Origin: Lachnospiraceae bacterium | Lineage (GTDB): Bacteria > Bacillota > Clostridia > Lachnospirales > Lachnospiraceae | DNA length: 64,000 nucleotides | Direction of reading: 5' to 3' | NCBI GenBank assembly: GCA_024695665.1 | Contig: JAILHT010000085.1 | Coordinates: forward strand, 1 to 64,000 | Shown here: in pieces, positions 9,531 through 59,062 of the stretch | Layout: every line of letters begins with the position of its first letter | Position numbering within the stretch: position 1 is the stretch's first letter | The notes under the pieces: generated by a model | The model's database searches: none | Told to the model about the DNA's origin: nothing | What the model saw: the letters and a program-made list of their open reading frames with translations, nothing else | Made by a program: the position numbers and the translations under genes

Positions 9531-12500
9531 ATGAAAGTTAAATGGAAAAAGTATTTGGCCTTCATTCTGGCGATTGCCTTAGTAATATCAAGTGGAGTTT
9601 TTTCTTCAGACAGATATTTGAAGGCCACTGATGGCGAGAAGGAAGTCGCGGAAGAGGTTCAAGGTACAGAAGAAGACGTGGTTGAAGAAAACGCAAATGC
9701 AGCTGCGGAACTGGCTCTGGCAGAGAGCGCAGAGGGCGGAGAAGAAACAGCAACGGTAGAAGAAGTTGCAGAGGAAGCACCGACAGAGGCACCTGTAGAG
9801 GAAGTACCGGCAGAGGCACCTGTAGAGGAAGCACCGGCAGAGGCACCTGCTGAGGAAACACCGGCTGTAACACCTGCGGATGAAAGCTCGGATATGGCAG
9901 CTTCCGATGACTCGACAGCATCAACTGAGACCGTTGAAGCAGAAACCGAAGAGGTTGAAACCGAGGCAGAAACCGAAGTCGAAACTGAGGCGGAGACCGA
10001 AACAGAGGAAGATACCGAAGAAGAGACTGAAGAAGATACCGAAGAAGAGACTGAAGAAGATACGGAAGATGATGTGAAGAAACCTGCAGCAACCGTAAAG
10101 GTTACAGCGGATGACGGAACAGTAATAACCGTTTCTGCACCGAAGGGAGTTCTTCCTAAAGGCTTCAAAGTAAAGGCAAAAGTAGTTTCAGGTTCAGATC
10201 TTGACGCTTTGGTTGCAGAGCAGCTTGAGGCAGCCGGAGTTGAGCTTGTGAGCTATGTTGCATATGATGTGACAATATATGACAAAAAAGGAAAAGAGAT
10301 ACAGCCTGACGGATCTGTAAGCGTTACAATCGGAAGCCCTGCAGCAGAGGGTGACTATCAGGCAGTATATCATGTTGACGATTCCGGAAACGTCGATAAG
10401 ACAAACGAGGTTACCGGTTCAGAAGCAACAATTTCAGCAGATCATTTTTCAGTATTCATAAACGCTGTCGGCGCATCGCCTAACGATTCGTCGACTGTTG
10501 CCATTTCCGGTGATACGGAAGTATATGTGGGAAGTACCATCACACTTACCGTAACCGGGGCAACCGGTGGAAGCTGGAGCATATCAAGAGGAAGCAGTTA
10601 TGCATCGGTTGACAACGAAGGCGTTGTAACAGGAAAAAGAGCAGGAACGGCAACAGTAACCTATTCCTACAAAACGGGAAACGGATGGGGAAGCCGTACC
10701 AAGACTGTATCTCACACAGTTACAGTCAAGAATTTTGAGATAAATATTTCCGGCGATACATCCGTAGATGTTGGAAATACCATACAGCTGACCGCTGACG
10801 TTAAGGGCGGAACATGGTCTGTATTATCCGGAAGCAGCTATGCGTCTGTAGATGATGAATCAGGACTTGTAACAGGACTTAAAGAAGGATCGGCAACCAT
10901 AAAGTATACGGTGGACGTAAATGGGAAAGAATTTTCCTCTACGTATGGTATAACCGTAAACCCAGCACGTACCATTACATTTAAGTATTATCCGGGAAGC
11001 CCGAATGACAGCGCCAAGATTGGCGATTACAGTTCGATAAAGTTCTGTGTACTTCTCGTAGATGAGAACGGAAATCAGACATATTATGACGGTTCGGTAG
11101 CCGATTTGGTAATAAATTCAAGTACGGTTTCTATAAATGCTTCCACATTTGCATCTATAGATATCGAGGGGTACTCGTTTGCAAAGGCTTATGCATACTT
11201 CCCATGGTATGGATCAAGCGTCACTGACGAAAACAGCTTTGCACCTGTACTTAGCTTCAAGAACTTCGGAAAAGTGGGATCCGGAACTCATTATGACAGC
11301 TATATAGGATTTACGACAACATACGGAAGCGGTTCGGATTTCAGCGCATACCCTGACAGTACAGGATATTATGCTTACAATCCTACCGGAACCTTGAGAC
11401 TTGTTTTCTATAAGATTACTGCAGATACACCGAACACAAACTATGTTGTAAACGACAGCACAACTCTCACACAGATAGATACCACCCTGTGGAAAAACGG
11501 TGGATATACATATTATCCAAAGGATATGACCTCAACATATAACCAGACTTATATGGAAGAGAACTATCCGAACGAAGGATCATTCGAAGGATGGTATACA
11601 GACAGTGCTTGCACAAAACTTGTAACCTCATCATTCTTTGATACGGCAGTTACAGGTGATGTTACACTTTACGCAAAGTGGAACAAAGAAAAAGAAGTAA
11701 GCTATACGGTAAACTACCTGCTCAACGGAACAACGGATGCTCTCGCGGAGAGCACAACAGGTACAGGAATCTGGAGAACCACAGCGACTGCTGAGGCGAC
11801 AGATATCGACGGATATACACCTGTAAGTGCATCCGGAAGTGTCAAGCTTGTAAAAGATGAGACAAAGAACGTGATAAATCTCTACTATTACAAGAATGTT
11901 ACCGTGACAGCAAACAGCGATACAAAGAACTATGACGGAACAGAGAAGAGTGTATCCGGATACAGCGTTACAGAAGGTATCCTTGAGAGTTATCCTGGCG
12001 CAGAGTTCGAAGGAATAAGCGCAGGGGCAAAGGGAACCGATGCAGGTGAATATGCTAGTACGTTCGCAGAAGGCACAGTGGGAACAGTAAGTTCCAACGG
12101 ATATTATATTATAGCTGCAACTGCAGACGGAACTCTCACAATCAATCCTGTTGACGTAACTGTGGAGATAACAGGAAATACTGATACAAAGGCATACAGC
12201 GGAAGCGAACAGTCCGTAACGGGCTATGAAGTGACCGGCACTAGCGATAGCGCATACACAAGCAATTATGTTGGACTTGCAGAAGGCGTTGAGGCTGTTG
12301 CAAGTGGTACTGACGCAGGCACATACAATATGGGCCTTACAGCAGAAAGCTTTGTTAACACAAACGTAAACTACAATGTAACCTTCAGCGTAACTGACGG
12401 AGCACTTACAATAGAGCAGGCTGATGCAATTGTAGTTGAAATAGAAGGAAATCACGACAGCAAGGTATATGACAAGACTGCTATTACAGTCAGCGGATAT

Positions 12501-15500
12501 ACCGTAAAAAGTATAAGCAACAGCATTTATACCGAAGATGATTTTGCACTTAAAGAAGATGTGACAGACAGCGCATCCGGAACACATGTCGGAACATACG
12601 GCATGGGTCTTGCCGCAGATTCATTTGAAAATACAAATGCAAACTTCAAAAATGTAAGCTTTGTAGTTACCGACGGATATGCAGAGATAACAGAGCGACC
12701 TATAACCGTCACATCAGCTACAGACAGTAAAGCATATGATAAAACGGCGCTCACAAATGATGAAGTCACAGTTACTTCAGGCTCTTTCGCTGATGGAGAG
12801 AGTTTTGTATATGATGTTACCGGATCTCAGACAGAGGTCGGAAACAGCGCCAATACATTCACCTACACTGCAGGAGCCGACACAGATTTAGCTGACTACA
12901 GTGTAACCAAGATTGAGGGAACACTCACAGTATCCGAGAAGGATGGAGTGGTTGTCACAATCACAGAGAACAGCGGTACTTTTACCTATAACGGAGAAGC
13001 ACAGAGCGTAAGCGGATACACAGTATCCACTAGCGATGACAGCTACAGCACTTCAGATTTCACATTTAACGGAAATGATGTAGTCGAAGGAACCGTAGCA
13101 GGAACTTACGAGATGCAGCTGGTAGCTTCGGATTTTGAAAATACAAATGCGAACTTCAAGGATGTTCAGTTTGTTATAGTAGACGGAAGTCTTGTGATAA
13201 ATCCTATAGAAGCAAAGATAACAATAAAAGCAGGTACCGGCACAAAGGTTTATGACGGAAATGCACTTTCTGCAGATTACTCATACACTGACGGAGTGCT
13301 CTTAGACGGCGATGCTCTAACCGCGACAGTAAGCGGAGAGATAACAAATGTCGGAGAGGCAACTTCGAAAGTTACAGGATATACAATCAAACGCGGTGAT
13401 GTAGATGTCACAAACTGCTACACTGTAGGCAAGGAAGACGGAACGCTCACTGTTACTGTAAGACCTGTAAAGGTAACATCGGAAGGAAAGACAAAAGAGT
13501 ATGACGGAACGGCTTTGACCGAATCCGGATACAGCATTGAGTCAACCTCCGAGGGACGTGGACTTGTAAGCGGTGAGACAATCACTGTTACAACAAACGG
13601 AAGTCAGACAGATGTCGGAACTTCAAAGAATACTTTTGATGTAGAGGCAGGCACAGCAGATCTTGCAAACTATGATATTGAAAAGGTTGAGGGAACTCTC
13701 GAAGTAACCACAAATACCAAGAAGATAGTTGTAAAAGCTGATGATGCAACAAAGAAGTACGATGGCACAGCGCTCACAGAAGACGGATACAGCATAGTTT
13801 CCGGAGAGACAAATCTTCCGGCAGGAGCAACAGTAAGCGCAACGGTAAGCGGAAGCCAGACAACATACGGATCTTCTGAAAATGTTATATCTGATGTCAA
13901 GGTTATGTTTGGTGAGGAAGACATTACCGGATTCTTCAGCGGCATTGAGGCAAATAACGGAACACTTTCCGTAGAGAAAGCCCCGATAACCATCAAGTCG
14001 AAGGATGCACATAAGGTATATGACGGCACACCACTCACCGAGAATACGGTAGAGATAGTAAGCGGACAGCTCTATGGGGAAGATACATTAACAGCTACAA
14101 CAAACGCGTCGGTTACATATGTAAGCGAAGGTCAGATAGACAATACATACACATATGAGATAGTTGGCGCAGAGAATTATGAAGTTACCGCTAATACCGG
14201 AAAGCTTTATATAGAAAAGAACAATACACCGATTGTGATAACAGCGGACACGCTTTCCAAGAAGTATGACGGAGACGCTTTGACAGCCGGTTATACCACA
14301 AGCGGAGAACTCATCGACAACGATACTATAGATGCTACGGTGAGCGGAACGATAACAGATGTACTTGTTGACGAAGGCGGAAATGTTCAGTCAGTACCAA
14401 GTACAATCACAGGATATACGATCACAAGAGAAGTTGGCGGCGAGACTATTGATGTTACAGATTGCTACAGCAATATAACAACAAATGCTGGAACACTCAC
14501 AGTGACAAAGAGAGATGTAACCTTAACTTCGGAAGGCGCAACAAAGACTTATGACGGAACAGCACTCACCGCAAACGGTGAAAATGATGTTGTCATAGGT
14601 GGAGACAAATTTGTCGGAGAAGAGGGAGCAGAATTTGAGATAACAGGTACTTTGACAGACGCAGGAGAGACGGACAATACATTTACCTACACTCTCAAAG
14701 ACAACACAAAAGAATCGAACTACAATATTACAGTAGCCTACGGCAAACTTGTGATAGCTGAGGCCGATGAAGTAATAGTAAACATTGTAGGAAACAATGC
14801 ATCAAAGACTTACAACGGCGCAGCTCAGAACGTGACCGGATATACGGTTACAATAAGTTCGGATCTGTATACTGAGGACGATTTCACATACAACGGTGAA
14901 GCAAAGGCAGAGGGAACCGACGCCGGAACTTACAGTATGAATCTTAAAGCGTCCGATTTCGTAAATAACAGTAACAACTTTGAAAATGTAACATTCAACA
15001 TTACTGACGGAACTCTTGAGATCGAGAAGGCCGGAGACATAACAGTAGTTGCAAACTCAGCAAGCAAGGTTTATGACGGAACTGCTCTCACAGCAGGATA
15101 CACATATACCGGAACTCTTGTAGAAGGACATGAACTCGAGGCAACAACAGAGGGAGAAATCACAGATTACGCTGAGAACGGAGCAGTGAACAAAATCGCA
15201 TCCTATGTTGTAAAAGACGGCGATGGAAAAGATGTCACTGCAAACTACAACTTCCTGGCTTCGGTAGACGGAACTTTGAAAATAGCAAAGAGACCGGTAA
15301 CTATAGCAACTTCCGATGCTACAAAGCAGTATGACGGAACCGCACTGACGGCTGATGGCTATGAGATAACAGAGACCAACGACGAGGCTAAGGTAGGATT
15401 CGTAGGAACAGATTCCGTAGCAGTGAATGTTACAGGAACAATAACAAATGTCGGAACAGCCGCAAATACATTTGATATCACTGCAGCAGGGACGACAAAC

Positions 15501-18500
15501 CTTGAGAATTACAATATCACAGAGACACCTGGAACGCTTGAGATAACAGCAAACACATCAAAGCTTGTCATAACAGCCGACAACGGTGAGAAGGAATATG
15601 ACGGAACCGCACTCACGGTATCGACAGCTTCACTCACAGAGGGAACACTTCCTGAAGGTGCTGTAATAACAGCTGAGAACACAGGATCTCAGACAAATGC
15701 AGGAGCAAGTGACAATATCTTAAGCTCTTACAAGATCACTCTTGGAGGCAAAGATATCACTGGCTACTACACAAATGTAGAGAAGAGAAACGGTTCTCTG
15801 AACGTAAGTAAGAAGAATGTTGTACTCCTCTCGGCAACAGACGAGAAGAAGTATGACGGAACCGCACTTACAAATGCAAATTACACCTTTGAAGACGGAA
15901 CCGCATTTGTTGAGGGTGAGGGAATCACAATCACAAGCAGCGCATCCATAATTGACAAGGGTGAGATTGACAACACATTTGCATATGCAGCAAATGATGG
16001 AACCAACCTAAACAACTACACGATAAGTGCAAATTACGGAAAACTGAAAGTTACTGAGAGAAGCGTAACGCTTACATCCGCAACAGACAGTGCAACTTAC
16101 ACAGGCGATCCGCTTGTAAATACAGAAGTGACGGTAAGTGGCGACGGATTCGTAGACGGTGAGGGCGTGAGATGTGATGTCACAGGAAGCCAGACTGTAG
16201 CAGGATACAGTGACAACCTGTTCACATATGTATTCAACGAGGGAACAAAGGCAGCAAACTATAATGTAAGCACTGTATACGGAATACTCACAGTAGCGGC
16301 AAGCGATGATGAGATTATCGTAACGGTAACCGCAAACAGTGATATAGATGAGGCATATGACGGAAGCCTGCACGAGCTTAAAGGATATACAATAAGCAGT
16401 ACAAATCCGGCATACACCGAGGCTGATTTCACATACAGCGGAACAGACAGCATCTCTGAAAAGAATGCGGGAACATACACATTAGCACTTGATAAGAGTA
16501 AGTTTAAAAATACTAATAACAATTATTCAAATGTAACATTCAACGTGATAGACGGAACCCTTGTAATAGCAAAGAGACCTGTAACAGTCACCTCCGACGG
16601 TGCAACCAAGGAATACGACGGAACGGCTCTCACAGCAAATGAGGCCTCAAACGTAAGTGTTACAAGTGAGTTGGGATTCGTTGACGGAGAGGCTCCAGAG
16701 TACAATATCACAGGAAGCATTACCGATGTTATTGAAGGCGGAGCGGACAATACGTTCACATACGAGTTTGCAAGCGAGGAGATCGCAGGCAACTATGTAG
16801 TGACACCGGTATACGGAAAACTCTATGTCACAAAGAATACGACACCGATAACAATCAGTGCCAAAGATGCAGAAAAGGTATATGACGGAACAGAGCTTAA
16901 GGCAGAAGGCTTCGACTTCACAGAAGGAGTTCTTGCAAGCGGAGAGGTTCTCACAGCAGAGGTAACAGGAACTGCAGGAGCTAATGTTTCTACCGGAACA
17001 TCAAGGATAGCAAGTTACAAAGTTACACGAGCATCCGACAACAAGGATGTCACAGCATTCTATACCTTTACAGAGAGCAATACTGGAACACTTAAGATAA
17101 CCGCAAGACCTGTGACCCTCACATCAGAGGGAAGCGCAAAGATGTATGACGGAACTGCACTCGTAAAAGAGGTAGTTAACGCATCAACCGGAACTAACGA
17201 AGGATTTGTGGGAGAAGATACCGTAACGTACAGCAATTTCGCAAGTCAGACCACAGTGACCGGTGAGAGCGGTGTGGACAACACATTCGATTACACCTTT
17301 ACAGGAAGCAATGAAAACAATTACTCGATAACCAAGAAATACGGAAAACTCAAAGTATATGACAGAGATGTCAAGTTTGAGGTTACCGTAATGGCAAACG
17401 GCGGAGAATTCAAGTACGACGGAACTACACATACTGTAGACGGTTTCGTAAACGAGACTGAGGACGGTATCCCTGTAACCGTTGGCGGAGTAAACTACAC
17501 AGTAACCGGACTTACCTCGACAGCTACTGTTAAGGATGTTGCAGACAGCACTGTTACAAGCATAGCCGGAACAGCGTTAGTCAAGGACGAGAACGGAAAT
17601 GATGTGACATCACAGTTCATAGTTCATGCAAATCCTGCAAACGTAACTGTAACAAAGAGAAGCGTAATACTCACATCCCAGACACAGAGCTGGCCATATG
17701 ATGGAGACGATCATTACAGCCACGATGTGACAGTAACCGGAGACGGATTCGTCGATGAAGAGGATGCAACTTACACATTCGAAGATGATGTTAAGGTAAC
17801 ATATGCCGGAGAGAACAAGACAAATGCGTTCACCTACACATTGAAGGAGAACACAGATGCAAACAACTACAACATAACGACAAATTATGGACAGCTGACC
17901 GTAACAAACAGATCTGACGATCCGGATTCGGATGACGCCAAGTATATAATCTATGTTGAGGCAAACAGCGGCGAGTACACATACGACGGTGAGGCGAAGA
18001 CGGTTAGCGGATTTAAGGCTGATACGTACAGGGCTTCTAACGGAGCCACATACACCGTAAGCGGACTGACAGCAGGTGCAACGCTCACAGATGCAGGAAC
18101 CGCAACAGTTACAATAGACGGAACGGCAGTCGTAACAGACGCAAACGGAAAAGATGTCACAGCACAGTTTGTTGTTAACAGCAATACAGGAACACTTAAG
18201 ATAAATCCAAGAACAGTAAAGATCAGGTCGGTCGATGCTGAGCAGGAGTACAACGGATCGGCACTTGTTGCAAATGAAGTTGAATACTCGGGCGACGGAT
18301 TTGTCGGAAGCGATTCGGCAATAATAACATACACCGGAAGCCAGTTGTTAGTAGGATTCTCTGAGAACTTCTTCACATATGAACTTGCAACCGGAGTAAA
18401 TGCAGACAACTATACAATAACAACCGAATACGGAGTCCTCAATGTAACGCCTAGAGACGCAGCATATGAGATAACCGTAAAAGCTAACAGTGCCGAGGAA

Positions 18501-19733
18501 GTATACGATGGATCAGAGAAGACCGTTTCGGGATTTGAAGAGACAGAGTTTACGGTTGAAGGCAACACATACACCGTGAGCGGACTTGAAGCATATGCTT
18601 CGGGAACGGAAGCGGGAACATACACAACAACAATCACCGGAAAAGCAGTAGTTACGGATGCTTCGGGAAATGATGTTTCGGACCAGTTTACTGTACATGC
18701 CGAAACCGGAACACTCACAATCAAGGGAGTATACACACTTACAATCAATTATGTTGATGCAAGCGGAAACAAACTTGCAGACTCTTACGTAGGAAACTAT
18801 GTGGAGGGTGAGACCTTCGGACCTATCGATTCACCTGAAGTTGAAGGATACACACCTGCATTCAGAGCCATCTACAGTGATGAGGGCGGAATGCCGGCAA
18901 GAGATGTCGAAGTTGATGTACTCTACACGGCAAACCCTATAACAGACGACGATGACGATGACAGCGGAGAGGGAGATACCGAGACGGAGAAGATTGAGAC
19001 CGACAGTGATGATACCGGAGTTGACGGAGTAGAGCCTACAGTGGATGACGAAACGGATGACACCGGAGTTGACGGAGTAGAACCTACAGCTGATGATTCG
19101 GTACCAACCGGAGAGACTACCGGTGATACAACAGCGGACGGAACGACAGATACCACTGACAATACAACCCAGCTTGTAGTACCGGTTACGGATACTCAGA
19201 CTGGAACAACAGCGGATACGACAGGCGATGAAGGTGAAGGCACAACAATAGCCGACGGAGAAGTTCCGGCAGGACAGCTCACGATAGATACGGAAGGAAA
19301 TCCTACTATCACACAGCTCGCTGATGAGGACGTACCTCTTGCAGCAAATGTTGAACTCACCTGGGCAATCATCAACCTGCTCGCAGCAATAATCACCGCA
19401 CTCCTTAGCTTGATACTCTTATTCACATACTTCACAAAGAAGAAAGAAGAAGATGAGAAGATTAACAACAAAGAAGGCGAAGTGATGGATGAGGATGAAG
19501 AATACGAAATAAAGAAACGCGGATTCTTAAGACTCATCAGTATAATACCGGCAGTGGTTGCAATAGTACTCTTCGTACTCACTGAGGATATGACCAAGAC
19601 TATGGTGCTCACTGACAAGTGGACATTGTGCATGGTAATCATCCTTATCCTTCAGGTTATAATAGCTTTCTTCACAAGAAAGAAAAAAACTGAGAAGGAT
19701 CCGGAAGGAAAAGAGCCTGAAGCAACTGCATAA
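9531..19733 (+). CDS. Giant (3400-residue) repeat surface protein, probable adhesin
   Basis: The order of parts is: signal peptide (about 1-33); Glu/Thr/Ala/Pro low-complexity stalk (34-184); a folded unit followed by two Big2/Ig-like domains (about 322-479, SGDTEVYVGSTITLTV and SGDTSVDVGNTIQLTA); an InlB-type repeat ending FEGWYTDSACTKLVT; about 26 YDG/MBG-type repeats (790-3066; core K-YDGTALT); a MucBP-like domain (about 3069-3136, YTLTINYVDASGNKLADSYV); an Asp/Thr-rich linker; and three membrane helices (about 3275-3304, 3330-3350, 3364-3382) with a charged tail. There is no LPxTG motif, so anchoring is by the C-terminal helices. GGAGACGCGT precedes the ATG. Adhesion to mucin or glycans is inferred from domain types. 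Upstream lie an ECF sigma factor and a signal peptidase. Confidence 0.9.
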   Translation: MKVKWKKYLAFILAIALVISSGVFSSDRYLKATDGEKEVAEEVQGTEEDVVEENANAAAELALAESAEGGEETATVEEVAEEAPTEAPVEEVPAEAPVEEAPAEAPAEETPAVTPADESSDMAASDDSTASTETVEAETEEVETEAETEVETEAETETEEDTEEETEEDTEEETEEDTEDDVKKPAATVKVTADDGTVITVSAPKGVLPKGFKVKAKVVSGSDLDALVAEQLEAAGVELVSYVAYDVTIYDKKGKEIQPDGSVSVTIGSPAAEGDYQAVYHVDDSGNVDKTNEVTGSEATISADHFSVFINAVGASPNDSSTVAISGDTEVYVGSTITLTVTGATGGSWSISRGSSYASVDNEGVVTGKRAGTATVTYSYKTGNGWGSRTKTVSHTVTVKNFEINISGDTSVDVGNTIQLTADVKGGTWSVLSGSSYASVDDESGLVTGLKEGSATIKYTVDVNGKEFSSTYGITVNPARTITFKYYPGSPNDSAKIGDYSSIKFCVLLVDENGNQTYYDGSVADLVINSSTVSINASTFASIDIEGYSFAKAYAYFPWYGSSVTDENSFAPVLSFKNFGKVGSGTHYDSYIGFTTTYGSGSDFSAYPDSTGYYAYNPTGTLRLVFYKITADTPNTNYVVNDSTTLTQIDTTLWKNGGYTYYPKDMTSTYNQTYMEENYPNEGSFEGWYTDSACTKLVTSSFFDTAVTGDVTLYAKWNKEKEVSYTVNYLLNGTTDALAESTTGTGIWRTTATAEATDIDGYTPVSASGSVKLVKDETKNVINLYYYKNVTVTANSDTKNYDGTEKSVSGYSVTEGILESYPGAEFEGISAGAKGTDAGEYASTFAEGTVGTVSSNGYYIIAATADGTLTINPVDVTVEITGNTDTKAYSGSEQSVTGYEVTGTSDSAYTSNYVGLAEGVEAVASGTDAGTYNMGLTAESFVNTNVNYNVTFSVTDGALTIEQADAIVVEIEGNHDSKVYDKTAITVSGYTVKSISNSIYTEDDFALKEDVTDSASGTHVGTYGMGLAADSFENTNANFKNVSFVVTDGYAEITERPITVTSATDSKAYDKTALTNDEVTVTSGSFADGESFVYDVTGSQTEVGNSANTFTYTAGADTDLADYSVTKIEGTLTVSEKDGVVVTITENSGTFTYNGEAQSVSGYTVSTSDDSYSTSDFTFNGNDVVEGTVAGTYEMQLVASDFENTNANFKDVQFVIVDGSLVINPIEAKITIKAGTGTKVYDGNALSADYSYTDGVLLDGDALTATVSGEITNVGEATSKVTGYTIKRGDVDVTNCYTVGKEDGTLTVTVRPVKVTSEGKTKEYDGTALTESGYSIESTSEGRGLVSGETITVTTNGSQTDVGTSKNTFDVEAGTADLANYDIEKVEGTLEVTTNTKKIVVKADDATKKYDGTALTEDGYSIVSGETNLPAGATVSATVSGSQTTYGSSENVISDVKVMFGEEDITGFFSGIEANNGTLSVEKAPITIKSKDAHKVYDGTPLTENTVEIVSGQLYGEDTLTATTNASVTYVSEGQIDNTYTYEIVGAENYEVTANTGKLYIEKNNTPIVITADTLSKKYDGDALTAGYTTSGELIDNDTIDATVSGTITDVLVDEGGNVQSVPSTITGYTITREVGGETIDVTDCYSNITTNAGTLTVTKRDVTLTSEGATKTYDGTALTANGENDVVIGGDKFVGEEGAEFEITGTLTDAGETDNTFTYTLKDNTKESNYNITVAYGKLVIAEADEVIVNIVGNNASKTYNGAAQNVTGYTVTISSDLYTEDDFTYNGEAKAEGTDAGTYSMNLKASDFVNNSNNFENVTFNITDGTLEIEKAGDITVVANSASKVYDGTALTAGYTYTGTLVEGHELEATTEGEITDYAENGAVNKIASYVVKDGDGKDVTANYNFLASVDGTLKIAKRPVTIATSDATKQYDGTALTADGYEITETNDEAKVGFVGTDSVAVNVTGTITNVGTAANTFDITAAGTTNLENYNITETPGTLEITANTSKLVITADNGEKEYDGTALTVSTASLTEGTLPEGAVITAENTGSQTNAGASDNILSSYKITLGGKDITGYYTNVEKRNGSLNVSKKNVVLLSATDEKKYDGTALTNANYTFEDGTAFVEGEGITITSSASIIDKGEIDNTFAYAANDGTNLNNYTISANYGKLKVTERSVTLTSATDSATYTGDPLVNTEVTVSGDGFVDGEGVRCDVTGSQTVAGYSDNLFTYVFNEGTKAANYNVSTVYGILTVAASDDEIIVTVTANSDIDEAYDGSLHELKGYTISSTNPAYTEADFTYSGTDSISEKNAGTYTLALDKSKFKNTNNNYSNVTFNVIDGTLVIAKRPVTVTSDGATKEYDGTALTANEASNVSVTSELGFVDGEAPEYNITGSITDVIEGGADNTFTYEFASEEIAGNYVVTPVYGKLYVTKNTTPITISAKDAEKVYDGTELKAEGFDFTEGVLASGEVLTAEVTGTAGANVSTGTSRIASYKVTRASDNKDVTAFYTFTESNTGTLKITARPVTLTSEGSAKMYDGTALVKEVVNASTGTNEGFVGEDTVTYSNFASQTTVTGESGVDNTFDYTFTGSNENNYSITKKYGKLKVYDRDVKFEVTVMANGGEFKYDGTTHTVDGFVNETEDGIPVTVGGVNYTVTGLTSTATVKDVADSTVTSIAGTALVKDENGNDVTSQFIVHANPANVTVTKRSVILTSQTQSWPYDGDDHYSHDVTVTGDGFVDEEDATYTFEDDVKVTYAGENKTNAFTYTLKENTDANNYNITTNYGQLTVTNRSDDPDSDDAKYIIYVEANSGEYTYDGEAKTVSGFKADTYRASNGATYTVSGLTAGATLTDAGTATVTIDGTAVVTDANGKDVTAQFVVNSNTGTLKINPRTVKIRSVDAEQEYNGSALVANEVEYSGDGFVGSDSAIITYTGSQLLVGFSENFFTYELATGVNADNYTITTEYGVLNVTPRDAAYEITVKANSAEEVYDGSEKTVSGFEETEFTVEGNTYTVSGLEAYASGTEAGTYTTTITGKAVVTDASGNDVSDQFTVHAETGTLTIKGVYTLTINYVDASGNKLADSYVGNYVEGETFGPIDSPEVEGYTPAFRAIYSDEGGMPARDVEVDVLYTANPITDDDDDDSGEGDTETEKIETDSDDTGVDGVEPTVDDETDDTGVDGVEPTADDSVPTGETTGDTTADGTTDTTDNTTQLVVPVTDTQTGTTADTTGDEGEGTTIADGEVPAGQLTIDTEGNPTITQLADEDVPLAANVELTWAIINLLAAIITALLSLILLFTYFTKKKEEDEKINNKEGEVMDEDEEYEIKKRGFLRLISIIPAVVAIVLFVLTEDMTKTMVLTDKWTLCMVIILILQVIIAFFTRKKKTEKDPEGKEPEATA
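9774..9854 (+). repeat. 27-bp coding tandem repeat (about 3 copies)
   Basis: Three 27-bp units begin at 9774, 9801 and 9828 and encode EAPTEAPVE, EVPAEAPVE and EAPAEAPAE in the stalk of the giant surface protein. Such repeats can change copy number and so vary the stalk length. Confidence 0.8.
10011..10070 (+). repeat. 24-bp perfect coding tandem repeat (2.5 copies)
   Basis: Two identical 24-bp units (10011-10034 and 10035-10058) plus a half unit encode DTEEETEE in the acidic stalk of the giant surface protein. Confidence 0.85.
11905..18725 (+). repeat. Array of about 26 YDG/MBG-type domain repeats
   Basis: Diverged repeats of roughly 75-100 codons share a core such as TKEYDGTALT, a middle element like TGSQTDVGTSKNTF, and an ending NYNIT-x-GTL. 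By eye I count 26 YDG-like cores, including YNG, YSG, YTG and YDK variants. DNA identity between units is moderate, so this is an old expansion and not a recent perfect duplication. Confidence 0.8.
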
Positions 19734-51322: not shown

Positions 51323-52150
51323 ATGAAAAAAATAATGGTTTCGGTGGCTCCGGTAGCGGCGACTGACATTCTCATCAATCCGAGAGCGATAGCGAGAGAT
51401 GTCATTGAATGCTACAAAAACGGTGCATCGATGGTGCATCTTCATGTAAGAGATTTGAACGGAAAACTCACCCCGGACTTGAGTCTTTTGGAGGAGACCG
51501 TAGATTATATCAGGGAAGGCTGCGACATAGTGGTGGAGATATCCACAGGAGGAGTCTCAAACCTCACGATTGAGGAGAGGGTCCAACCTTGTTACGCGCC
51601 ATATGTCGAGGCTACAAGCCTAAATGTTGGTTCGGTCAACCTCGGCGAAGCGGTATATCAGAATCCGATTGCGGATGTTAGATACTGTGTACAGCAGATC
51701 ATAGAGAACAACAAAATCCCCGAGATAGAAGTGTTTGAACTTGGAATGATAAACACTGTAAGGGAGCTTGCAGAGCAGTTTGATTTTGTCAAACCGATAT
51801 TATTTGCCCTGGTTTTCGGGCACGGAGGCGAGATGCCTGCTACGGTACCGGCACTTAAACATATGATTGATGCCTTGTATGAGAACTTCCCGAACAAAGG
51901 AGATGTGCTCTGGGGATATACCCAGGCGCACAGGCAAGACTTTGAGATGGTAAAAGTTGCCCTCGATATGGGAGCGTCATCGGTTCGAATCGGTTTTGAG
52001 GATTCGGATTATCTGGCACCGGGAGTGAGAGTTGACAACAATGCGACATTGATTGCGGAAGTGTCGGATATCATAAGGAGCAAAGGCATGGAGCCTATGA
52101 CCCCTGACGAGGTCAGAAAAATGCTTCGGATTCCGCCGCTTCGCAGATAA
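51323..52150 (+). CDS. BKACE (DUF849) beta-keto acid cleavage enzyme family protein
   Basis: The 275-residue TIM-barrel protein has the zinc and substrate signatures of the beta-keto acid cleavage family: KIMVSVAPVAATD, GASMVHLHVRDLNGKLTPDL (HLH zinc pair), VVEISTGGVSNLTIEERV, EATSLNVGSVNLGEAVY, EIEVFELGMINTVREL, and GASSVRIGFEDSDYLAPG (conserved Arg and Glu). Known members react a beta-keto acid with acetyl-CoA to give acetoacetate and a CoA ester. Several of the usual late residues are kept, so it looks active. It is encoded between the GntR regulator and the class II aldolase, which implies a beta-keto acid intermediate in this pathway. Confidence 0.9.
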   Translation: MKKIMVSVAPVAATDILINPRAIARDVIECYKNGASMVHLHVRDLNGKLTPDLSLLEETVDYIREGCDIVVEISTGGVSNLTIEERVQPCYAPYVEATSLNVGSVNLGEAVYQNPIADVRYCVQQIIENNKIPEIEVFELGMINTVRELAEQFDFVKPILFALVFGHGGEMPATVPALKHMIDALYENFPNKGDVLWGYTQAHRQDFEMVKVALDMGASSVRIGFEDSDYLAPGVRVDNNATLIAEVSDIIRSKGMEPMTPDEVRKMLRIPPLRR

Positions 52151-52164
52151 GAAGGGGAAAATAC

Positions 52165-53088
52165 ATGGTTATACAAGGTATGAGTTATCCCTCTGATTTT
52201 GAAGCCAAAAAAGCTATGATCGAGACGGCGGATCGCCTCTCGAAAAAAGGATATCTTATAGGATGTGACGGCTCTCTGAGTGTGCGCGTCGGACCGAATG
52301 CCGTATGGATAACGGTCGCGGGGGCGGACAAAGAGAAACTCACCCAGGATATGATGGTGAGAGTCGATATGAACGGGAAGCAGATGATAAATTCCGGAAA
52401 AAAGAATCTTCCGGATGACCTGTGCGCACACATGAAGGTGTACAACGCAAATCCCGAGATAAGATCGGTCATACATGCATATCCTCCGAGAGCGAACGTG
52501 ATGGGAATGAAAGGCGAAGATATTGAGTGCGCCGATTTCACCCCACAGATAAGAGACATGGGATCCGTTGCGACAGTGAGGGAGAGAAACTCGGATGCGA
52601 TAGCGCAGTGTGCGGCAATGGAGTGCAAGTCAAAAAGCGGAATTGTTATCGCAAATGATGGATGCGTTTTTTGGGGAAAAAGCGTTTCGGAGACTTATTA
52701 CAGACTTGAGGCTATAGAGTATTACGCAAAAGTAAAAAGTCTTTTGAAAGCAGATGAAAAGAAATGTGACGGAAGCTGCAAAAAGAGAGCGGAAGCGTTG
52801 GAGACAGCTGTCTGTATACAGAGAGAAAAAACAAGTGATTGCAGCAGAAATTGCAATGTGTGTCCGGTAAACGGGACGAGCAGTTGCCTGCATTACGAGG
52901 AAAAGAAGATGATGCCGCAGGAAAATATCAGGGTTGTAAGAGTTCCCGATATACAGGTGAAACCGAAAAGGAAGACGCCTGTTTCTACGGACAAAATAAT
53001 AAGACCGGAAATATTAGTCACCGAAGCGAAAAAAGAGACGGTGATGGGAGAAGTTATAAAAAGAACACGAGAATCGATACTCAGGTAA
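52165..53088 (+). CDS. Class II aldolase-family enzyme with Cys-rich tail and possible encapsulation helix
   Basis: Residues 1-195 form a class II aldolase/adducin domain (LIGCDGSLSVRVGPNAVWIT, LCAHMKVYNANPEIRSVIHAYPPRANVMG). The usual H-x-H zinc pair reads HAY, so the second His is Tyr. Beyond the domain is a 110-residue extension. Seven Cys occur at 201, 205, 217, 226, 230, 233 and 241; CSRNCNVCP is a CX3CX2C pattern that could hold an Fe-S cluster or zinc. A basic, Pro-containing linker then leads to an amphipathic C-terminal helix VMGEVIKRTRESILR, resembling shell-targeting peptides. It probably cleaves or decarboxylates a phosphorylated acid to supply the aldehyde for the next enzyme (inference). 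Confidence 0.85.
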   Translation: MVIQGMSYPSDFEAKKAMIETADRLSKKGYLIGCDGSLSVRVGPNAVWITVAGADKEKLTQDMMVRVDMNGKQMINSGKKNLPDDLCAHMKVYNANPEIRSVIHAYPPRANVMGMKGEDIECADFTPQIRDMGSVATVRERNSDAIAQCAAMECKSKSGIVIANDGCVFWGKSVSETYYRLEAIEYYAKVKSLLKADEKKCDGSCKKRAEALETAVCIQREKTSDCSRNCNVCPVNGTSSCLHYEEKKMMPQENIRVVRVPDIQVKPKRKTPVSTDKIIRPEILVTEAKKETVMGEVIKRTRESILR

Positions 53089-53100
53089 CGGAGGCAAAAT

Positions 53101-54546
53101 ATGGATGTCAGCTCACAGGATATCGAAGCAATCGTAAGACAGGTGATTGCGGGAATCAATCCGGAGACCGTAAAAAGATCTGTTGCTCCTATGTATCGCA
53201 CGAACGGTTCAAAAGGGGATTTTGGAGTGTTCGACACGGCGGATGACGCGGTGAATGCGGCACATAAGGCACAGAGAATATGGGTTTCGGATTACAAGGT
53301 AGAAGACAGAAAAAGAATAGTGGATGCTATCAGGAGATGCACCAGAGCCAATGCGAGAGAGTGGAGCGAAAAGATAGTCGAGGAGACCGGAATGGGACGC
53401 GTCGAGGACAAGATTGAAAAACATCTTGCGGTTGCAAACAAAACACCGGGTCCTGAGTGTCTTACTACTTCAGCAATCTCCGGCGATACGGGACTAATGA
53501 TAGAAGAGTATGCGCCGTTTGGCGTTATATGCTCAATCACTCCGACAACTAACCCAACGGAGACTATAGTAAACAACACGATAAGTATGATATCGGGCGG
53601 AAATACCGTTGTTTACAATGTTCATCCAAGGGCAAAAAAAATATGTGCGGAGTGTCTCAAAACTTTAAATAAAACAATAATTGAGGCCGGAGGACCGGAG
53701 AACCTCATAACGATGGTTAAGGAGCCAACAATGGATACGGTCGATACGCTGGCCGCAAATCCGAAGGTGAGACTTATGGCCGGAACCGGCGGAATGGGAA
53801 TGGTGAACGCCCTGCTTAGAAGCGGAAAAAAATGCATAGGGGCGGGAGCCGGAAATCCTCCTGTGATCGTGGATGAGACGGCAGACGCGAAACTTGCGGG
53901 TGAGAAGGTATACGAGGGAGCTTCGTTTGACAACAACATTTTGTGTTTTGCGGAGAAGGAAGTATTTGTAATCGAACCGAATTATGACACTTTCATAAAA
54001 AGCATTCAGAGTGCAGGAGCATATCTTTTGGACAGAGAACAGACGAGAAGACTGACAGAGATGTGCCTCATAAAGAAAAAGAGCGGTGACGGATACGAGG
54101 CAAACAAGGACTGGGTAGGACAGAACGCATCGAAGATACTCGCACAAATCGGAGTGAATGTGCCGGATAGTACGAGGCTTTGCGTATGCGAGGTTGATGC
54201 AAATCATCCGTTTGTCATGGCAGAGCAGATGATGCCGGTACTTCCGGTTGTGAGATGCAAAAACTTCGATGAAGCAGTTGAGTTTGCACTTGAAGCAGAG
54301 CATGGCAACCGCCATACATCCTCGATATTCAGCAAGGATGTAGACCATATGACAAGGTTTGCGAGACTTATAGAGACGACAATATATGTCAAAAACAGTT
54401 GTACAAAAGCCGGTGTCGGAATCGGAGGCGAAGGCCATTGCACGATGACTATCGCAGGACCAACCGGAGAGGGAATAACCGATGCGAGAAGCTTTTGCAG
54501 AAAGAGAAGATGCGTACTCGCCGAAGGCGGTTTGAGAATCGTATAA
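53101..54546 (+). CDS. CoA-acylating aldehyde dehydrogenase of the compartment (PduP/EutE type)
   Basis: The 481-residue enzyme begins with an amphipathic encapsulation helix, SSQDIEAIVRQVIAGI (residues 4-19), then a linker, then the aldehyde dehydrogenase fold: GVICSITPTTNPTETIVNNTISMISGGNTVVYNVHP, LMAGTGGMGMVNALLRSGKKCIGAGAGNPPVIVDE, and the catalytic Cys in SFDNNILCFAEKE. The absence of a general-base Glu and the overall pattern fit the CoA-acylating class, turning an aldehyde plus CoA and NAD+ into acyl-CoA. It is the core enzyme of a metabolosome; acyl-CoA passes to PduL. It sits 13 bp behind the aldolase and just before the shell genes. Confidence 0.95.
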   Translation: MDVSSQDIEAIVRQVIAGINPETVKRSVAPMYRTNGSKGDFGVFDTADDAVNAAHKAQRIWVSDYKVEDRKRIVDAIRRCTRANAREWSEKIVEETGMGRVEDKIEKHLAVANKTPGPECLTTSAISGDTGLMIEEYAPFGVICSITPTTNPTETIVNNTISMISGGNTVVYNVHPRAKKICAECLKTLNKTIIEAGGPENLITMVKEPTMDTVDTLAANPKVRLMAGTGGMGMVNALLRSGKKCIGAGAGNPPVIVDETADAKLAGEKVYEGASFDNNILCFAEKEVFVIEPNYDTFIKSIQSAGAYLLDREQTRRLTEMCLIKKKSGDGYEANKDWVGQNASKILAQIGVNVPDSTRLCVCEVDANHPFVMAEQMMPVLPVVRCKNFDEAVEFALEAEHGNRHTSSIFSKDVDHMTRFARLIETTIYVKNSCTKAGVGIGGEGHCTMTIAGPTGEGITDARSFCRKRRCVLAEGGLRIV

Positions 54547-54566: not shown

Positions 54567-54851
54567 ATGTTAGGAGCAATTGGATTTGTTGAGACAAATG
54601 GTCTCGTTGGGAATATCGAAGCGACGGATGCGATGCTTAAGGCAGCTGACGTAGAACTCGTCGGATCGCAGACCATAGGCGCCGGACTTGTATGTGTTGT
54701 TGTGACCGGTGAAGTCGGAGCCGTAAAGGCAGCAGTTGAAGCCGGACAGGAAGCCGCATCGAGAGTCGGAGAACTCGTGAGCGTGAATGTAATCGCAAGA
54801 CCGCATGCGGACCTTGAGAAAATCATGCCGCCTAAGGGCCCTGTTGCATAG
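54567..54851 (+). CDS. BMC-H hexameric shell protein A1
   Basis: The 94-residue shell protein has one BMC domain: [26 protein letters not shown], the pore segment [45 protein letters not shown]. Hexamers of such proteins tile the compartment facets, with the central pore lined by the IGAG loop. It is highly similar to the third shell gene (A2, 55187), differing in the pore loop flank ([11 protein letters not shown] here, [11 protein letters not shown] there). A Cys next to the pore could matter for permeability or a metal site (inference). Confidence 0.95.
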
Positions 54852-54864
54852 GAGGATATGAGAG

Positions 54865-55161
54865 ATGGCAAACAATTTGGAAGGTTTTAAACTTGAAGCA
54901 CTCGGAATGATTGAGACATATGGACTTACCGCAAGTTATCAGGCTGCGGATGCGATGCTTAAAGCAGCGGATGTAAGACTTGTAGGTCAGGAAAAAATCG
55001 GAGCAGGACTTGTCACTGTATTTGTACAGGGTGATGTCGGAGCTGTAAAAGCAGCTGTAGAGGTAGGAGAAGAAGCTGCATCGAGAGTCGGACAGGTTGT
55101 GAGTATACATGTTATACCTCGCCCACACGGAAGTGTCGGAGAGGTTATGCCGTCACTTTAA
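54865..55161 (+). CDS. BMC-H hexameric shell protein B1
   Basis: The 98-residue BMC-H protein has an eight-residue N-terminal extension before the domain ([32 protein letters not shown]) and the pore segment [12 protein letters not shown]. After residue 10 it is almost identical to the fourth shell gene (B2, 55491); the main differences are in the N-terminal extension and a few residues such as [10 protein letters not shown] versus [25 protein letters not shown] precedes the ATG. Confidence 0.95.
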
Positions 55162-55186
55162 AGAGTGATATAAGAGGAGAGACTTT

Positions 55187-55477
55187 ATGTTGAAAGCATT
55201 AGGATTTGTAGAGACAAAAGGATTGGTTGGAAACATTGAGGCAACGGACGCTATGCTCAAGGCGGCAGACGTTGATTTTGTGGGCTCGGATACGATAGGA
55301 GCGGGACTAACCACAGTTGTAGTGACCGGTGAAGTCGGAGCTGTAAAAGCAGCTGTAGAGGCAGGAGAAGAAGCCGCATCGAGAGTCGGTGAACTTGTGA
55401 GTGTAAATGTTATCCCAAGACCACATGCGGATCTTGAGAAGATCATGCCGAAAAAAGGTCCGGCAGCAGGCAAATAA
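55187..55477 (+). CDS. BMC-H hexameric shell protein A2
   Basis: The 96-residue BMC-H protein is a close paralog of A1 (54567): [33 protein letters not shown], pore segment [12 protein letters not shown], ending [12 protein letters not shown]. The A/B/A/B order indicates duplication of a two-gene unit. The pore flank has Asp and Thr where A1 has Gln and Val-Cys, so A1 and A2 hexamers, or mixed ones, may pass different molecules. Confidence 0.95.
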
Positions 55478-55490
55478 GGAGGTAGGGAAA

Positions 55491-55796
55491 ATGGCTACAG
55501 AAAAGAAACAGTTGGAGACAAGCAAACTTGAAGCGCTTGGAATGATAGAGACATACGGCCTTACCGCAAGCTATCAGGCAGCAGATGCAATGTTAAAGGC
55601 AGCAGATGTAAGACTTGTAGGCCAGGAGAAAATCGGAGCAGGACTTGTCACTGTATTTGTACAGGGCGATGTCGGAGCTGTAAAAGCAGCTGTAGAGGCA
55701 GGACAGGAAGCCGCATCAAGAGTCGGACAGGTTGTAAGTATGCATGTTATACCTCGTCCGCACGGAAGTGTCGGCGATGTAATGCCTACACTATAA
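55491..55796 (+). CDS. BMC-H hexameric shell protein B2
   Basis: The 101-residue BMC-H protein starts [20 protein letters not shown] after AAGGAGGTAGGGAAA; an in-frame ATG at 55407 inside the previous gene is not used. It is near identical to B1 (54865) apart from an N-terminal extension that is three residues longer. The pore segment [12 protein letters not shown] is unchanged from B1. It completes the four-gene hexamer set; no BMC-T (double-domain) gene is present in the locus. Confidence 0.95.
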
Positions 55797-55806
55797 GAGG
55801 TAAAAG

Positions 55807-56460
55807 ATGGTTTATCATAATATTACACAGGATGAACTTGTCCGTATTGTTATGGAAGCCGTTATGAAAGAACTCAATATGAATGACCGAACGGTTCCGG
55901 TAGGCATCTCTGTCAGACATATACATCTGACAAGGGAGCATGTGGACAGACTTTTCGGATACGGATACAAATTGACACCGAAAAAAGCGTTGAGTCAGCC
56001 GGGGCAGTTCGCCTGCGAGGAGACACTGGAGATAGTGGGACCGAAGGGCAGTATAAAAAAAGTCAGAATACTGGGACCCGAGAGAAAAATGAGTCAGGTT
56101 GAACTGTCAAAGACCGATGCGAGAACCGTGGGATTAAACCCGCCGGTAAGGTCGTCCGGAGACATAAAAGACACTCCGGGGATAAAACTTATCGGACCCA
56201 AGGGAAGTATAAATCTGAACGAAGGGGTTATAATCGCAGACCGTCATATTCATATGACACCGCAGGATGCTATGCGTTTTGGCGTTACGGATAAAGATCG
56301 TGTCAGCGTGAGAATTGACGGTGTAAAGCCGGGTATAATGGAAGATGTGGTCATTCGTGTGAGCGATAAGTATAAGCTTGACTTTCACGTCGATACGGAT
56401 GACGGAAATGCATTTATGATGGAACAGGGACAGAGAGTAACTGTTCTGGAAAAGAGGTAG
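55807..56460 (+). CDS. pduL: PduL-type phosphate propanoyltransferase
   Basis: This 217-residue phosphotransacylase has an N-terminal amphipathic encapsulation helix (QDELVRIVMEAVMKELN, residues 8-24) and two PduL beta-barrel domains with the zinc/histidine motifs VGISVRHIHLTREHVDRLFG and IIADRHIHMTPQDAMRFG, joined by SQPGQFACEETLEIVGPKGSI and RILGPERKMSQVELSKTDAR. It converts acyl-CoA plus phosphate to acyl phosphate, recycling CoA inside the compartment. It lies between the shell genes and the vertex protein. No acetate or propionate kinase is encoded in the locus, so one elsewhere would make ATP. Confidence 0.96.
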   Translation: MVYHNITQDELVRIVMEAVMKELNMNDRTVPVGISVRHIHLTREHVDRLFGYGYKLTPKKALSQPGQFACEETLEIVGPKGSIKKVRILGPERKMSQVELSKTDARTVGLNPPVRSSGDIKDTPGIKLIGPKGSINLNEGVIIADRHIHMTPQDAMRFGVTDKDRVSVRIDGVKPGIMEDVVIRVSDKYKLDFHVDTDDGNAFMMEQGQRVTVLEKR

Positions 56461-56462
56461 TT

Positions 56463-56723
56463 ATGATTCTGGGAACTGTAGTGGGAACGGTTGTTTCCAC
56501 AAGAAAAATGGAAAAACTTGTGGGATACAAGCTTCTAATGGTGGAACCATACTTTGGTGACAAAGAAAAAATAATTGTGGCCGGAGACAATATAGGTGCC
56601 GGGATAGGAGAGATGGTTTTGGTAACTACGGACGAGACCACCCAGCACGGACTGGATCATGATGCTCCGATAGATGCTTTTATCGTGGGAATCGTGGATA
56701 CCACTCCGGTTATAGGAAAGTAA
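56463..56723 (+). CDS. BMC-P pentameric vertex protein (EutN/CcmL family)
   Basis: The 86-residue protein starts MILGTVVGTVVSTRKMEKLVGYKLLMVEPYF and continues with VAGDNIGAGIGEMVLVTTDE and APIDAFIVGIVD, the EutN/CcmL barrel that caps the twelve vertices of the shell. It is the only pentamer gene in the locus. It follows pduL by 2 bp and precedes the fusion dehydrogenase by 4 bp. With four hexamer genes this gives a complete minimal shell. Confidence 0.95.
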   Translation: MILGTVVGTVVSTRKMEKLVGYKLLMVEPYFGDKEKIIVAGDNIGAGIGEMVLVTTDETTQHGLDHDAPIDAFIVGIVDTTPVIGK

Positions 56724-56727
56724 AACT

Positions 56728-58746
56728 ATGAAGATAATTATTATCGGAAGTGCTGCAACCGGACTTGAGGTTGCAAAAAGCGCAGTGTCGTCTTACGGCA
56801 CTCAAATATGTATATATGAAAAGGGAAGTTTTGTTCAGACTAAAGGTGAGGATATAGGAGAACGTCTCTTGGCAGATGCCGACGGGCTGAATGCCGATAT
56901 AGGCAGATGCGAAGACTATCTGAAAAAGAGTGGTGCCGAGGTACATACTCTCCACGAGGTCACGGGGATTGATCCTTTGCATAAGACAGTTGAGGTCATG
57001 GACAAGAGAACCGGAATGACTTTTGCGGACAACTATGACAAACTCATAATAGCGACCGGATCACATTATGAAGTTCCAAATGTACCGGGCTCAGGGAAAA
57101 TGGGAGTGCATGTGTTAAAGACCACCGAGGATCTTCTTTTTATAAGAGAGTTTATCAAAACTCCTTATGTAAAGGATATTGTTGTCCTTGGAACGGATGC
57201 ACACGCAGACAGACTTGCAGATGCTTTTGCAAGAAAGAACAGAAATGTCAGAGTCATAGACACGACGATGGAGAGCATAAAAGCTTTCGACGGAAGAACT
57301 TTTGTCGAGAGAATCGTGACAGTGAACGGAAGCTATGCCTGTGATCTTTGTATAGCCTCTGACAGACTGATCCCTGATACAAAACTCGTATGCCATTGTG
57401 GAATCGAGATGACTTCATACGGTGAGATAATTGTAAACGAGAGAAATGAGACAAGCGTTAAAGACATATTTGCAGCCGGCAGTTGTGCATGTAAAAATGC
57501 CGGAGGATATGTGAGAGACAGCTATGCGAGAGACAGTTATGCGAGAGATGGTTATGAGTCTATAGTTTGTGGCACCATGTCTGAAGATAAAGCCGTGACT
57601 GTAAATGCAGTTAAGACTACATTCTTCGGAAAAGGCGCTGTGAGAAAACTTATCCCGGAACTCAAAGGCAGAGGATATGAGAGAGCGCTTGTGGTTACGG
57701 ACGGATTTCTCGCAGAGAACGGAGCCGCAAAGAGAGTCGGCGACGTGCTTATAGAAGCCGGAATTGAATACGCAGTCTATTCAGGGGTACAGCCGAATCC
57801 TACGGTGAAGGTTGTGAACGAGTGCATAAAGACAGCCGGAACAATAAAAGCGGATATTCTTGTAGCTGTGGGTGGCGGAAGTGCAATAGACACAGCTAAA
57901 GCAGTATCCATAGTAGTAAAGAACGGCGGAAGAGTAGAACAATATGAAGGTGTGAACAAGAGCAAGGCGAAGGGAACACCTATCGTTGCGATAAACACAA
58001 CTGCCGGCACGGGAAGTGAGTGCACTTCGTTTTACATAGTCACAGATCCTGTAAGACACAGCAAAATGACTATGGTGGACAAGAACTGTATGGTGGATAT
58101 AGCCGTAAACGATATCGATTTTATGATGTCAATGCCGCCTAAGCTCACCGCATCTACGGGAATGGATGCGCTTACCCATGCGATAGAGGCATATCTTTCC
58201 GTGAATGCAAACCCTGTAACGGACAAGGATGCTTACTTTGCAATGGAGACTGTTTTCAAATACCTCCCAAGAGCGGTACGAAATGGCTCTGATGAGGAGG
58301 CCAGAACTATGATGGCATATGCACAGAATGTTGCGGGTGAGGCATTTTCAAATGCCGGACTTGGAATGGTGCATGCGATGGCTCATGCACTTGGCGGTTT
58401 TTACAATCTGCCTCACGGAGTATGTAATGCAGTGCTTCTGCCTTATGTTATGGAATTCAATGCGAGCGATGCCGGGGTGTGTGACAAACTTATAAATGTC
58501 TGCAATGCCTTTGGACTAGAGGTCGGAAATGATCCTGTTCATGCGGCATCACAGGCGATAGCCGCAATACATGCCATGAACAGAGTGGTAGGTATACCAA
58601 AGAGCCTTTCGGAACTTGAAAAAGTCAAACCGACCGACTTTAGAGCGCTTGCTTCTCTTGCGGTCAGAGATACCTGTATGAGGACAAACCCAATCCGTGC
58701 AACGGAGGACATGGTTGTCAGTGTATATGAGAGGGCATTTTCATAA
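56728..58746 (+). CDS. Fusion of an FAD/NAD-oxidoreductase-like domain with an iron-type alcohol dehydrogenase
   Basis: Residues 1-260 resemble pyridine nucleotide-disulfide oxidoreductases: IIIGSAATGLEVAKSA (first Rossmann), KLIIATGSHYEVPNVPG and TSVKDIFAAGS. Key positions are altered: no redox-active Cys near residue 42, the second Rossmann loop reads VVLGTDAHADRLA, and the final FAD Asp is Ser. A triple repeat RDSYA (263-277) forms a linker. Residues 290-672 are a complete Fe-ADH: AVGGGSAIDTAKA, GMDALTHAIEAY, HAMAHALGGFYNLPHG, with Asp and three His metal ligands. The ADH half would reduce the aldehyde and regenerate NAD+ for the aldehyde dehydrogenase. The role of the flavoprotein-like half is unknown. 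Confidence 0.9.
   Translation: MKIIIIGSAATGLEVAKSAVSSYGTQICIYEKGSFVQTKGEDIGERLLADADGLNADIGRCEDYLKKSGAEVHTLHEVTGIDPLHKTVEVMDKRTGMTFADNYDKLIIATGSHYEVPNVPGSGKMGVHVLKTTEDLLFIREFIKTPYVKDIVVLGTDAHADRLADAFARKNRNVRVIDTTMESIKAFDGRTFVERIVTVNGSYACDLCIASDRLIPDTKLVCHCGIEMTSYGEIIVNERNETSVKDIFAAGSCACKNAGGYVRDSYARDSYARDGYESIVCGTMSEDKAVTVNAVKTTFFGKGAVRKLIPELKGRGYERALVVTDGFLAENGAAKRVGDVLIEAGIEYAVYSGVQPNPTVKVVNECIKTAGTIKADILVAVGGGSAIDTAKAVSIVVKNGGRVEQYEGVNKSKAKGTPIVAINTTAGTGSECTSFYIVTDPVRHSKMTMVDKNCMVDIAVNDIDFMMSMPPKLTASTGMDALTHAIEAYLSVNANPVTDKDAYFAMETVFKYLPRAVRNGSDEEARTMMAYAQNVAGEAFSNAGLGMVHAMAHALGGFYNLPHGVCNAVLLPYVMEFNASDAGVCDKLINVCNAFGLEVGNDPVHAASQAIAAIHAMNRVVGIPKSLSELEKVKPTDFRALASLAVRDTCMRTNPIRATEDMVVSVYERAFS
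57514..57558 (+). repeat. 15-bp coding tandem repeat (3 copies) at the domain junction
   Basis: Three 15-bp units (57514, 57529, 57544) encode RDSYA, RDSYA and RDGYE exactly between the flavoprotein-like and alcohol dehydrogenase parts of the fusion protein. Confidence 0.85.
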
Positions 58747-58792
58747 GAAATCGTTAGAATCAGTTGTAAAACTTTGTGATATTTGCGAAATC

Positions 58793-59062
58793 TACACGCA
58801 AAAGGGAAAGATCATTTAAAATACGTGTAAGCGAAAAGGAGAGTAAGCACGCGAATTATCATAGGCTTTAAATTTGCGTGTTGAGCTTCAGAACGGTAGA
58901 CACGTGAAATACATATAATTGCCTACACACGTGTAACAAATCATATAAGAGAAATTGAAGAAAATAAAATAGACACGTTAGAGGAAAGAAAGACTTTGTA
59001 CACGTGTAAGTGTTAAAAAACAGTTACACGCATACAACGAAAAATGCAAATATAGCGTGTAA
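58793..59062. repeat. Cluster of nine (A/G)CGTGT(A/C) motifs in both orientations
   Basis: Copies of CGTGTA or close variants lie at about 58793(-), 58824(+), 58877(+), 58900(-), 58930(+), 58973(-), 58999, 59035(-) and 59056(+). TACACGTGTA at 58999-59008 and ACACGTGT at 58927-58934 are perfect palindromes. Spacing is irregular (21-53 bp), which excludes a CRISPR. This is the left part of the 590-bp gap 58747-59336; no ORF is seen. Two further CGTGTA copies occur upstream of araB. A cluster of protein-binding sites is my best guess. Confidence 0.6.

Follow-up and report, generated by a model that had tools for sequence, protein, structure and literature searches.

The 64,000-nucleotide stretch analysed here (the window; positions 1 to 64,000 of contig JAILHT010000085.1, assembly GCA_024695665.1, from a Lachnospiraceae bacterium) carries a microcompartment operon with genes for a TRAP transporter, a regulator assigned to the GntR type from its sequence without a domain scan, a beta-keto acid cleavage enzyme (BKACE), a class II aldolase, an acylating aldehyde dehydrogenase, four BMC-H shell proteins, PduL and BMC-P. 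The last gene of this operon joins the remnant of a flavoprotein to an iron-dependent alcohol dehydrogenase (Fe-ADH; Table 1). An earlier note, drawn from the letters alone, had described this gene as some 260 flavoprotein-like residues connected through a tandem linker to a complete Fe-ADH. Indeed, a Pfam scan of the single 672-codon frame places Pyr_redox_2 at residues 1-186 (E 4e-26), Fe-ADH at 298-462 (8e-47) and ADH_Fe_C at 474-671 (3e-61), and the N-domain is 34-47% identical to flavoproteins that occupy the equivalent operon position in relatives. Given this E-value and this identity, a chance match is excluded, and the fusion in the window is confirmed as genuine.

Table 1. Features of the fused gene and of its operon, in window coordinates.
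Feature	Position	Strand	Remark
Fused open reading frame (ORF): flavoprotein remnant, linker, Fe-ADH	56728..58746	+	single uninterrupted frame, 672 codons/amino acids
Ribosome-binding-site-like AGGAAAG 5' of the fused-ORF start	56714..56720	+	dG -4.2
N-terminal remnant of a CoA-disulfide-reductase-like flavoprotein, residues 1-258	56728..57501	+	Pyr_redox_2; PDB homologues 6ruz, 3cgb
First FAD-binding glycine motif, IIGSAATG, partly kept	56740..56763	+	G7, G12 retained, A11 altered
Former redox loop	56830..56871	+	SCGxCGLPHY in relatives, FVQTKGEDIGERLL in the window; no cysteine
Former NAD(P) fingerprint (second Rossmann)	57181..57216	+	GGSxxGLE in relatives, GTDAHADRL in the window
28-residue deletion in the NAD domain	57265..57267	+	approximate site, after residue 179; from alignment
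Terminal FAD motif, GDC to GSC	57478..57495	+	S252 replaces D
Linker, residues 259-283, RDSYARDSYARDGYE repeat	57508..57556	+	15-bp tandem repeat, 3.3 copies
In-frame GTG, codon 262, candidate internal start	57511..57513	+	would give an ADH of about 411 amino acids; GGAGG at 57502-57506, 4 nt upstream
IVCG, retained last residues of the ancestral flavoprotein	57562..57573	+	from alignment and relatives' junctions
Fe-dependent alcohol dehydrogenase domain, residues 284-672, complete	57577..58746	+	
BKACE, same operon	51323..52150	+	
Class II aldolase with C-terminal tail	52165..53088	+	
CoA-acylating aldehyde dehydrogenase (PduP/EutE-like)	53101..54546	+	
Four BMC-H shell genes	54567..55796	+	
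PduL phosphate acyltransferase	55807..56460	+	
BMC-P (EutN/CcmL) vertex protein	56463..56723	+	

A fusion seen in a single metagenomic or draft genome, here of 161 contigs and with a short tandem repeat at the junction, might be suspected to be an assembly artefact, yet one misjoin cannot yield several in-frame deletions together with motif substitutions. Since it would take several distinct deletions and loop substitutions, while the frame is open throughout and the IVCG joint is retained, misassembly is very improbable. An assembly artefact is still conceivable in the number of copies of the 15-bp repeat.

We sought relatives in 84,980 species genomes and in about 1,080 genomes, one per species, that belong to the genus, family, order or class of the window bacterium, and recovered two sorts of related loci, whose gene order was compared as far as each contig reaches. 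Eight type A loci (L006, L007, L008, L010, L016, L069, L116 and L130) have the gene order of the window, with a flavoprotein gene of 409-411 amino acids directly 5' of a separate ADH gene; five of these loci have the two genes in one frame, divided by one stop. Type B loci (L011-L015, L121, L122, L131 and L133-L136; L132 is the L011 locus repeated) encode a flavoprotein of 443-444 amino acids, with a separate ADH further on, and a further related locus, L120, is without a flavoprotein. No second fused copy was found among the approximately 1,080 genomes, and the sole congener in the sample is without the locus. Viral contigs gave no relative, and plasmids only fragments of shell, aldehyde dehydrogenase and ADH genes. 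The fusion is thus no general trait of the ADH of this compartment, because the two genes are separate in all eight sister loci and no recurrence was found in these genomes. Frames of 808-827 amino acids in two genomes (G055 and G150) were considered as further fusions and rejected, being read-through of one stop between separate genes. In L009 (96-1910), an ADH of the same clade is fused N-terminally to a class II aldolase (605 amino acids), which is an independent fusion; the shell genes of that genome sit on a different contig.

The flavoproteins of these loci differ in how much of a CoA-disulfide reductase (CoADR) they retain. In type B, the L011 protein scores above the cut-off of the CoADR equivalog model NF007123 (563.8 against 458) and can be aligned over its whole length with 3cgb and 6ruz. 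Type A proteins lie below the CoADR cut-off, and their match to 3cgb is interrupted where about 34 residues after GDC are missing. The ANKxGR segment, which we take from knowledge of the family to lie beside the flavin, is present in type B and absent from all eight type A proteins; the CGLP redox cysteine is lost in half of the latter (L007, L010, L016, L130), and the GDC aspartate in L010, L016 and L130. The model of the type A protein of L116 (pLDDT 88) retains the NADH peroxidase/CoADR fold. Type A flavoproteins also share a new conserved cysteine (TCG/SCG/ACG) three residues before the CGLP cysteine position.

In the window, the erosion goes further. The earlier note had listed the redox cysteine, the second GxGxxG motif and the terminal FAD aspartate as altered, and the FVQTKGEDIGERLL loop, GTDAHADRL and S252 bear this out. 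It had missed, however, the heavy deletion of the flavoprotein: Pyr_redox_dim, the dimerisation or interface domain found in L116, L008, L011 and L121, is absent; the gap of 28 residues takes out the stretch corresponding to helix 190-202 and strand 206-209 of the L116 model; and the flavin-contact segment after GDC is missing, as in all type A relatives. According to the alignment with relatives, the linker repeat occupies the place of the deleted dimerisation domain. The N-domain falls short of CoADR in its redox-loop cysteine (CGxPY), Pyr_redox_dim, the NAD(P) and FAD fingerprints and the equivalog score (NF007123, 121.3 against 458; TIGR03385, 105.1 against 578.8). The window keeps 36 of the 74 sites that do not vary among the relatives and has lost 28 to deletion and 10 to substitution, the latter comprising five in the redox loop, two in the NAD fingerprint, A11 and two beside the linker. 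The hydrophobic core persists, with 64 of 71 all-hydrophobic alignment columns still hydrophobic in the window.

On one topology, the window branch measures 1.03 for the flavoprotein and 0.34 for the ADH, a ratio of 3.1 (bootstrap 1.9-5.1, n=60), compared with about 0.3-1.9 on other long end branches. An analysis of dN/dS was dropped, as synonymous sites are saturated. Rate and site pattern fit a putative loss of catalysis with the fold kept.

By contrast with the N-domain, the ADH part is preserved. It scores far above the Pfam cut-offs (Fe-ADH, 159.3 bits against 31.3; ADH_Fe_C, 207.1 against 27), keeps 117 of 123 invariant sites and matches 3owo with E about 1e-101, and Foldseek gives TM-scores over the target of 0.96-0.98 to group III Fe-ADHs. 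Positions D480, H484, H549 and H563, which from FucO and Z. mobilis ADH2 we take to be the metal ligands, are occupied; alignment with 3owo shows them to be conserved, as is the nucleotide motif GGGSxxD (GGGSAID, 382-388). By these comparisons of sequence and structure, it belongs with the ordinary group III Fe-ADHs.

How the two parts became one protein can be read from the relatives. The window N-domain nests inside the type A flavoproteins with support of 100/100. Its interface domain is deleted down to the terminal IVCG, which is followed directly by the ancestral start region of the ADH, T-MSEDKAVTVNAVKTTFFGKG; the flavoprotein stop codon is gone, and so is the ribosome site at the old ADH ATG (dG -1.5 against -5.9 to -10.8 in relatives). 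With stop codon and intergenic ribosome site lost, the flavoprotein remnant and the ADH are read as one protein. Comparison of the aligned sequences shows a reduction series in which a stretch of about 34 flavin-side residues was the first to go and of which the window lineage appears as the end state, the later losses being the redox loop, NAD fingerprint, NAD-domain helix and strand, FAD aspartate, dimerisation domain, stop and ribosome site. Hence the fusion is a derived, lineage-specific product of reductive evolution and not general to the ADH of this compartment.

We thus propose, as the probable reading, that the window gene is the ADH of a class II aldolase metabolosome that absorbed the remnant of a neighbouring flavoprotein, the N-domain being a non-catalytic pseudoenzyme appendage. 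An ancestral operon would have contained a CoADR-like flavoprotein gene, which in the type A clade came to lie directly 5' of the ADH gene and lost its ANKxGR segment; the window lineage would then have shed the redox loop, the NAD fingerprint, a portion of the NAD domain and the entire interface domain, as well as the stop and the intergenic ribosome site, giving a single protein. Its N-domain would be without redox chemistry, the ADH alone would be active and regenerate NAD+ by aldehyde reduction, and the N-domain may help packaging or assembly or may be merely tolerated. What the comparisons above show is the fusion itself, every single loss and the order in which the first of them occurred, together with the IVCG joint, the intact ADH residues, the accelerated N-domain and its retained hydrophobic core.

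That the N-domain acts instead as a functional flavin- or nucleotide-binding module, relaying electrons to the ADH or sensing redox for it, is improbable. It retains the first FAD glycines, the ribose-binding E32 and the ATG motif, along with 36 of the 46 undeleted invariant sites and the hydrophobic core. Yet the redox cysteine, NAD fingerprint, FAD aspartate, flavin-side segment and interface domain are all gone and the N-domain rate has tripled; moreover, we know of no flavin electron acceptor site in an Fe-ADH. The earlier note had offered a binding, scaffolding or electron-relay domain in place of a normal reductase; binding or scaffolding is compatible with the data, whereas the relay is unsupported. 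Its further idea, local NAD recycling or redox sensing by the flavin domain, is likewise unsupported, as the N-domain keeps neither the NAD fingerprint, redox loop and FAD aspartate nor the flavin-side segment, the dimerisation domain and one helix and strand of its NAD domain.

A more tentative variant, to which we give some weight, is that the N-domain is a fold-retaining pseudo-CoADR recruited as a new cargo-packaging or CoA/nucleotide-binding domain, which would tie the ADH to the enzyme core and control its activity, as the last stage of a trend that already shows in the separate type A proteins.

A rather doubtful rival is a decaying flavoprotein gene whose 3' end is open into the ADH, so that the ADH would be made from an internal GTG and the N-part would be the product of a pseudogene. 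The accelerated evolution and multiple deletions of the N-domain agree with decay, and the predicted dG at the GTG of codon 262 (-9.5) matches the true starts of this operon. However, the 4-nt spacing is short, and an equally strong site occurs at 1%-5% of random positions and so is not rare near a few candidate starts. Against decay also stand 261 codons without stop or frameshift, the kept hydrophobic core (64/71) and a retention of invariant sites above that expected from a uniform substitution excess (P about 5e-4, a rough estimate). The second BMC-H gene has a ribosome site, AGGAGGATATGAGAG, that is similar to the GGAGG-ATAT-GTG stretch (57502-57513).

Several points weigh against the proposed appendage. 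A separate ADH may be made from the codon-262 GTG, and such two-product expression, suggested by the predicted start, is the main ground for caution. With G7, G12 and E32 retained, FAD binding by the N-domain may still be possible. The AlphaFold model of the fusion has low pLDDT in the N-domain, where no flavoprotein rows were aligned, and is uninformative there and usable for the ADH only. The fusion is known from one genome, and synonymous saturation prevents dN/dS from separating constraint from recent decay; on both counts, recent relaxation is possible.

In its surroundings, the window genome has no further BMC-H genes, and an intact CoADR-like paralogue lies elsewhere in it (C139, L137). 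No Rfam family was found in the part of the window from 40 to 64 kb. Between the operon and a following NuoE/NuoF-like operon, TACACG/CGTGTA motifs cluster at 58790-59060 (seven in about 270 bases against 11 in the remainder of the window), with near-palindromic ACACGTGTAA copies. A 3,400-codon ORF at 9531-19733, with weak Big_2 and MBG matches, probably encodes a giant surface protein.

Altogether, the relatives grade from a canonical CoADR, by way of a form with one segment deleted, to a gutted domain joined to the neighbouring protein, and they offer an example of how an enzyme of a compartment may lose catalysis and turn into an appendage. They also reveal a CoADR-like gene in nearly all class II aldolase microcompartment loci examined (L120 excepted), a component unnamed in the main texts of the microcompartment catalogues. 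This enzyme could keep the private CoA pool of the compartment reduced. In each type B locus, a canonical CoADR-like gene lies between the BMC-P gene and the ADH. The main texts of both catalogues are silent on any pyridine-nucleotide-disulfide reductase, and our literature search found no paper coupling CoADR with microcompartments and none on a flavoprotein-Fe-ADH fusion; supplements were not covered in either case.

Compared with known systems, the window N-domain is homologous to the FAD and NAD domains of the CoADR/NADH oxidase/NADH peroxidase family (3cgb, 6ruz, 1npx; NF007123), and comparable loci of deeper relatives encode CoADR-like proteins of full length, but it differs from this family in having no redox cysteine, NAD fingerprint, FAD aspartate, ANKxGR segment or dimerisation domain. 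The ADH domain is as complete as the group III enzymes Z. mobilis ADH2 (3owo), B. methanolicus MDH (8zrl) and FucO (1rrm), none of which has the 283-residue N-terminal extension. AdhE likewise has another enzyme joined N-terminally to an Fe-ADH; its partner, however, is an active aldehyde dehydrogenase with channelled substrate, whereas the partner here is an eroded flavoprotein. The locus as a whole is nearest to PVM-like class II aldolase microcompartments (PMC4207490, PMC8217296, PMC8156839), with which it shares class II aldolase, aldehyde dehydrogenase and shell genes (here four BMC-H and one BMC-P). PVM-like loci mostly have a DeoR regulator and mostly no core ADH (PMC4207490), while the window locus has a GntR-type regulator and an ADH, with genes for BKACE and a TRAP transporter upstream and one that is CoADR-like. 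PVM-like loci have been reported from Hungatella hathewayi, and a Hungatella genome (L008) carries an operon of the window type.
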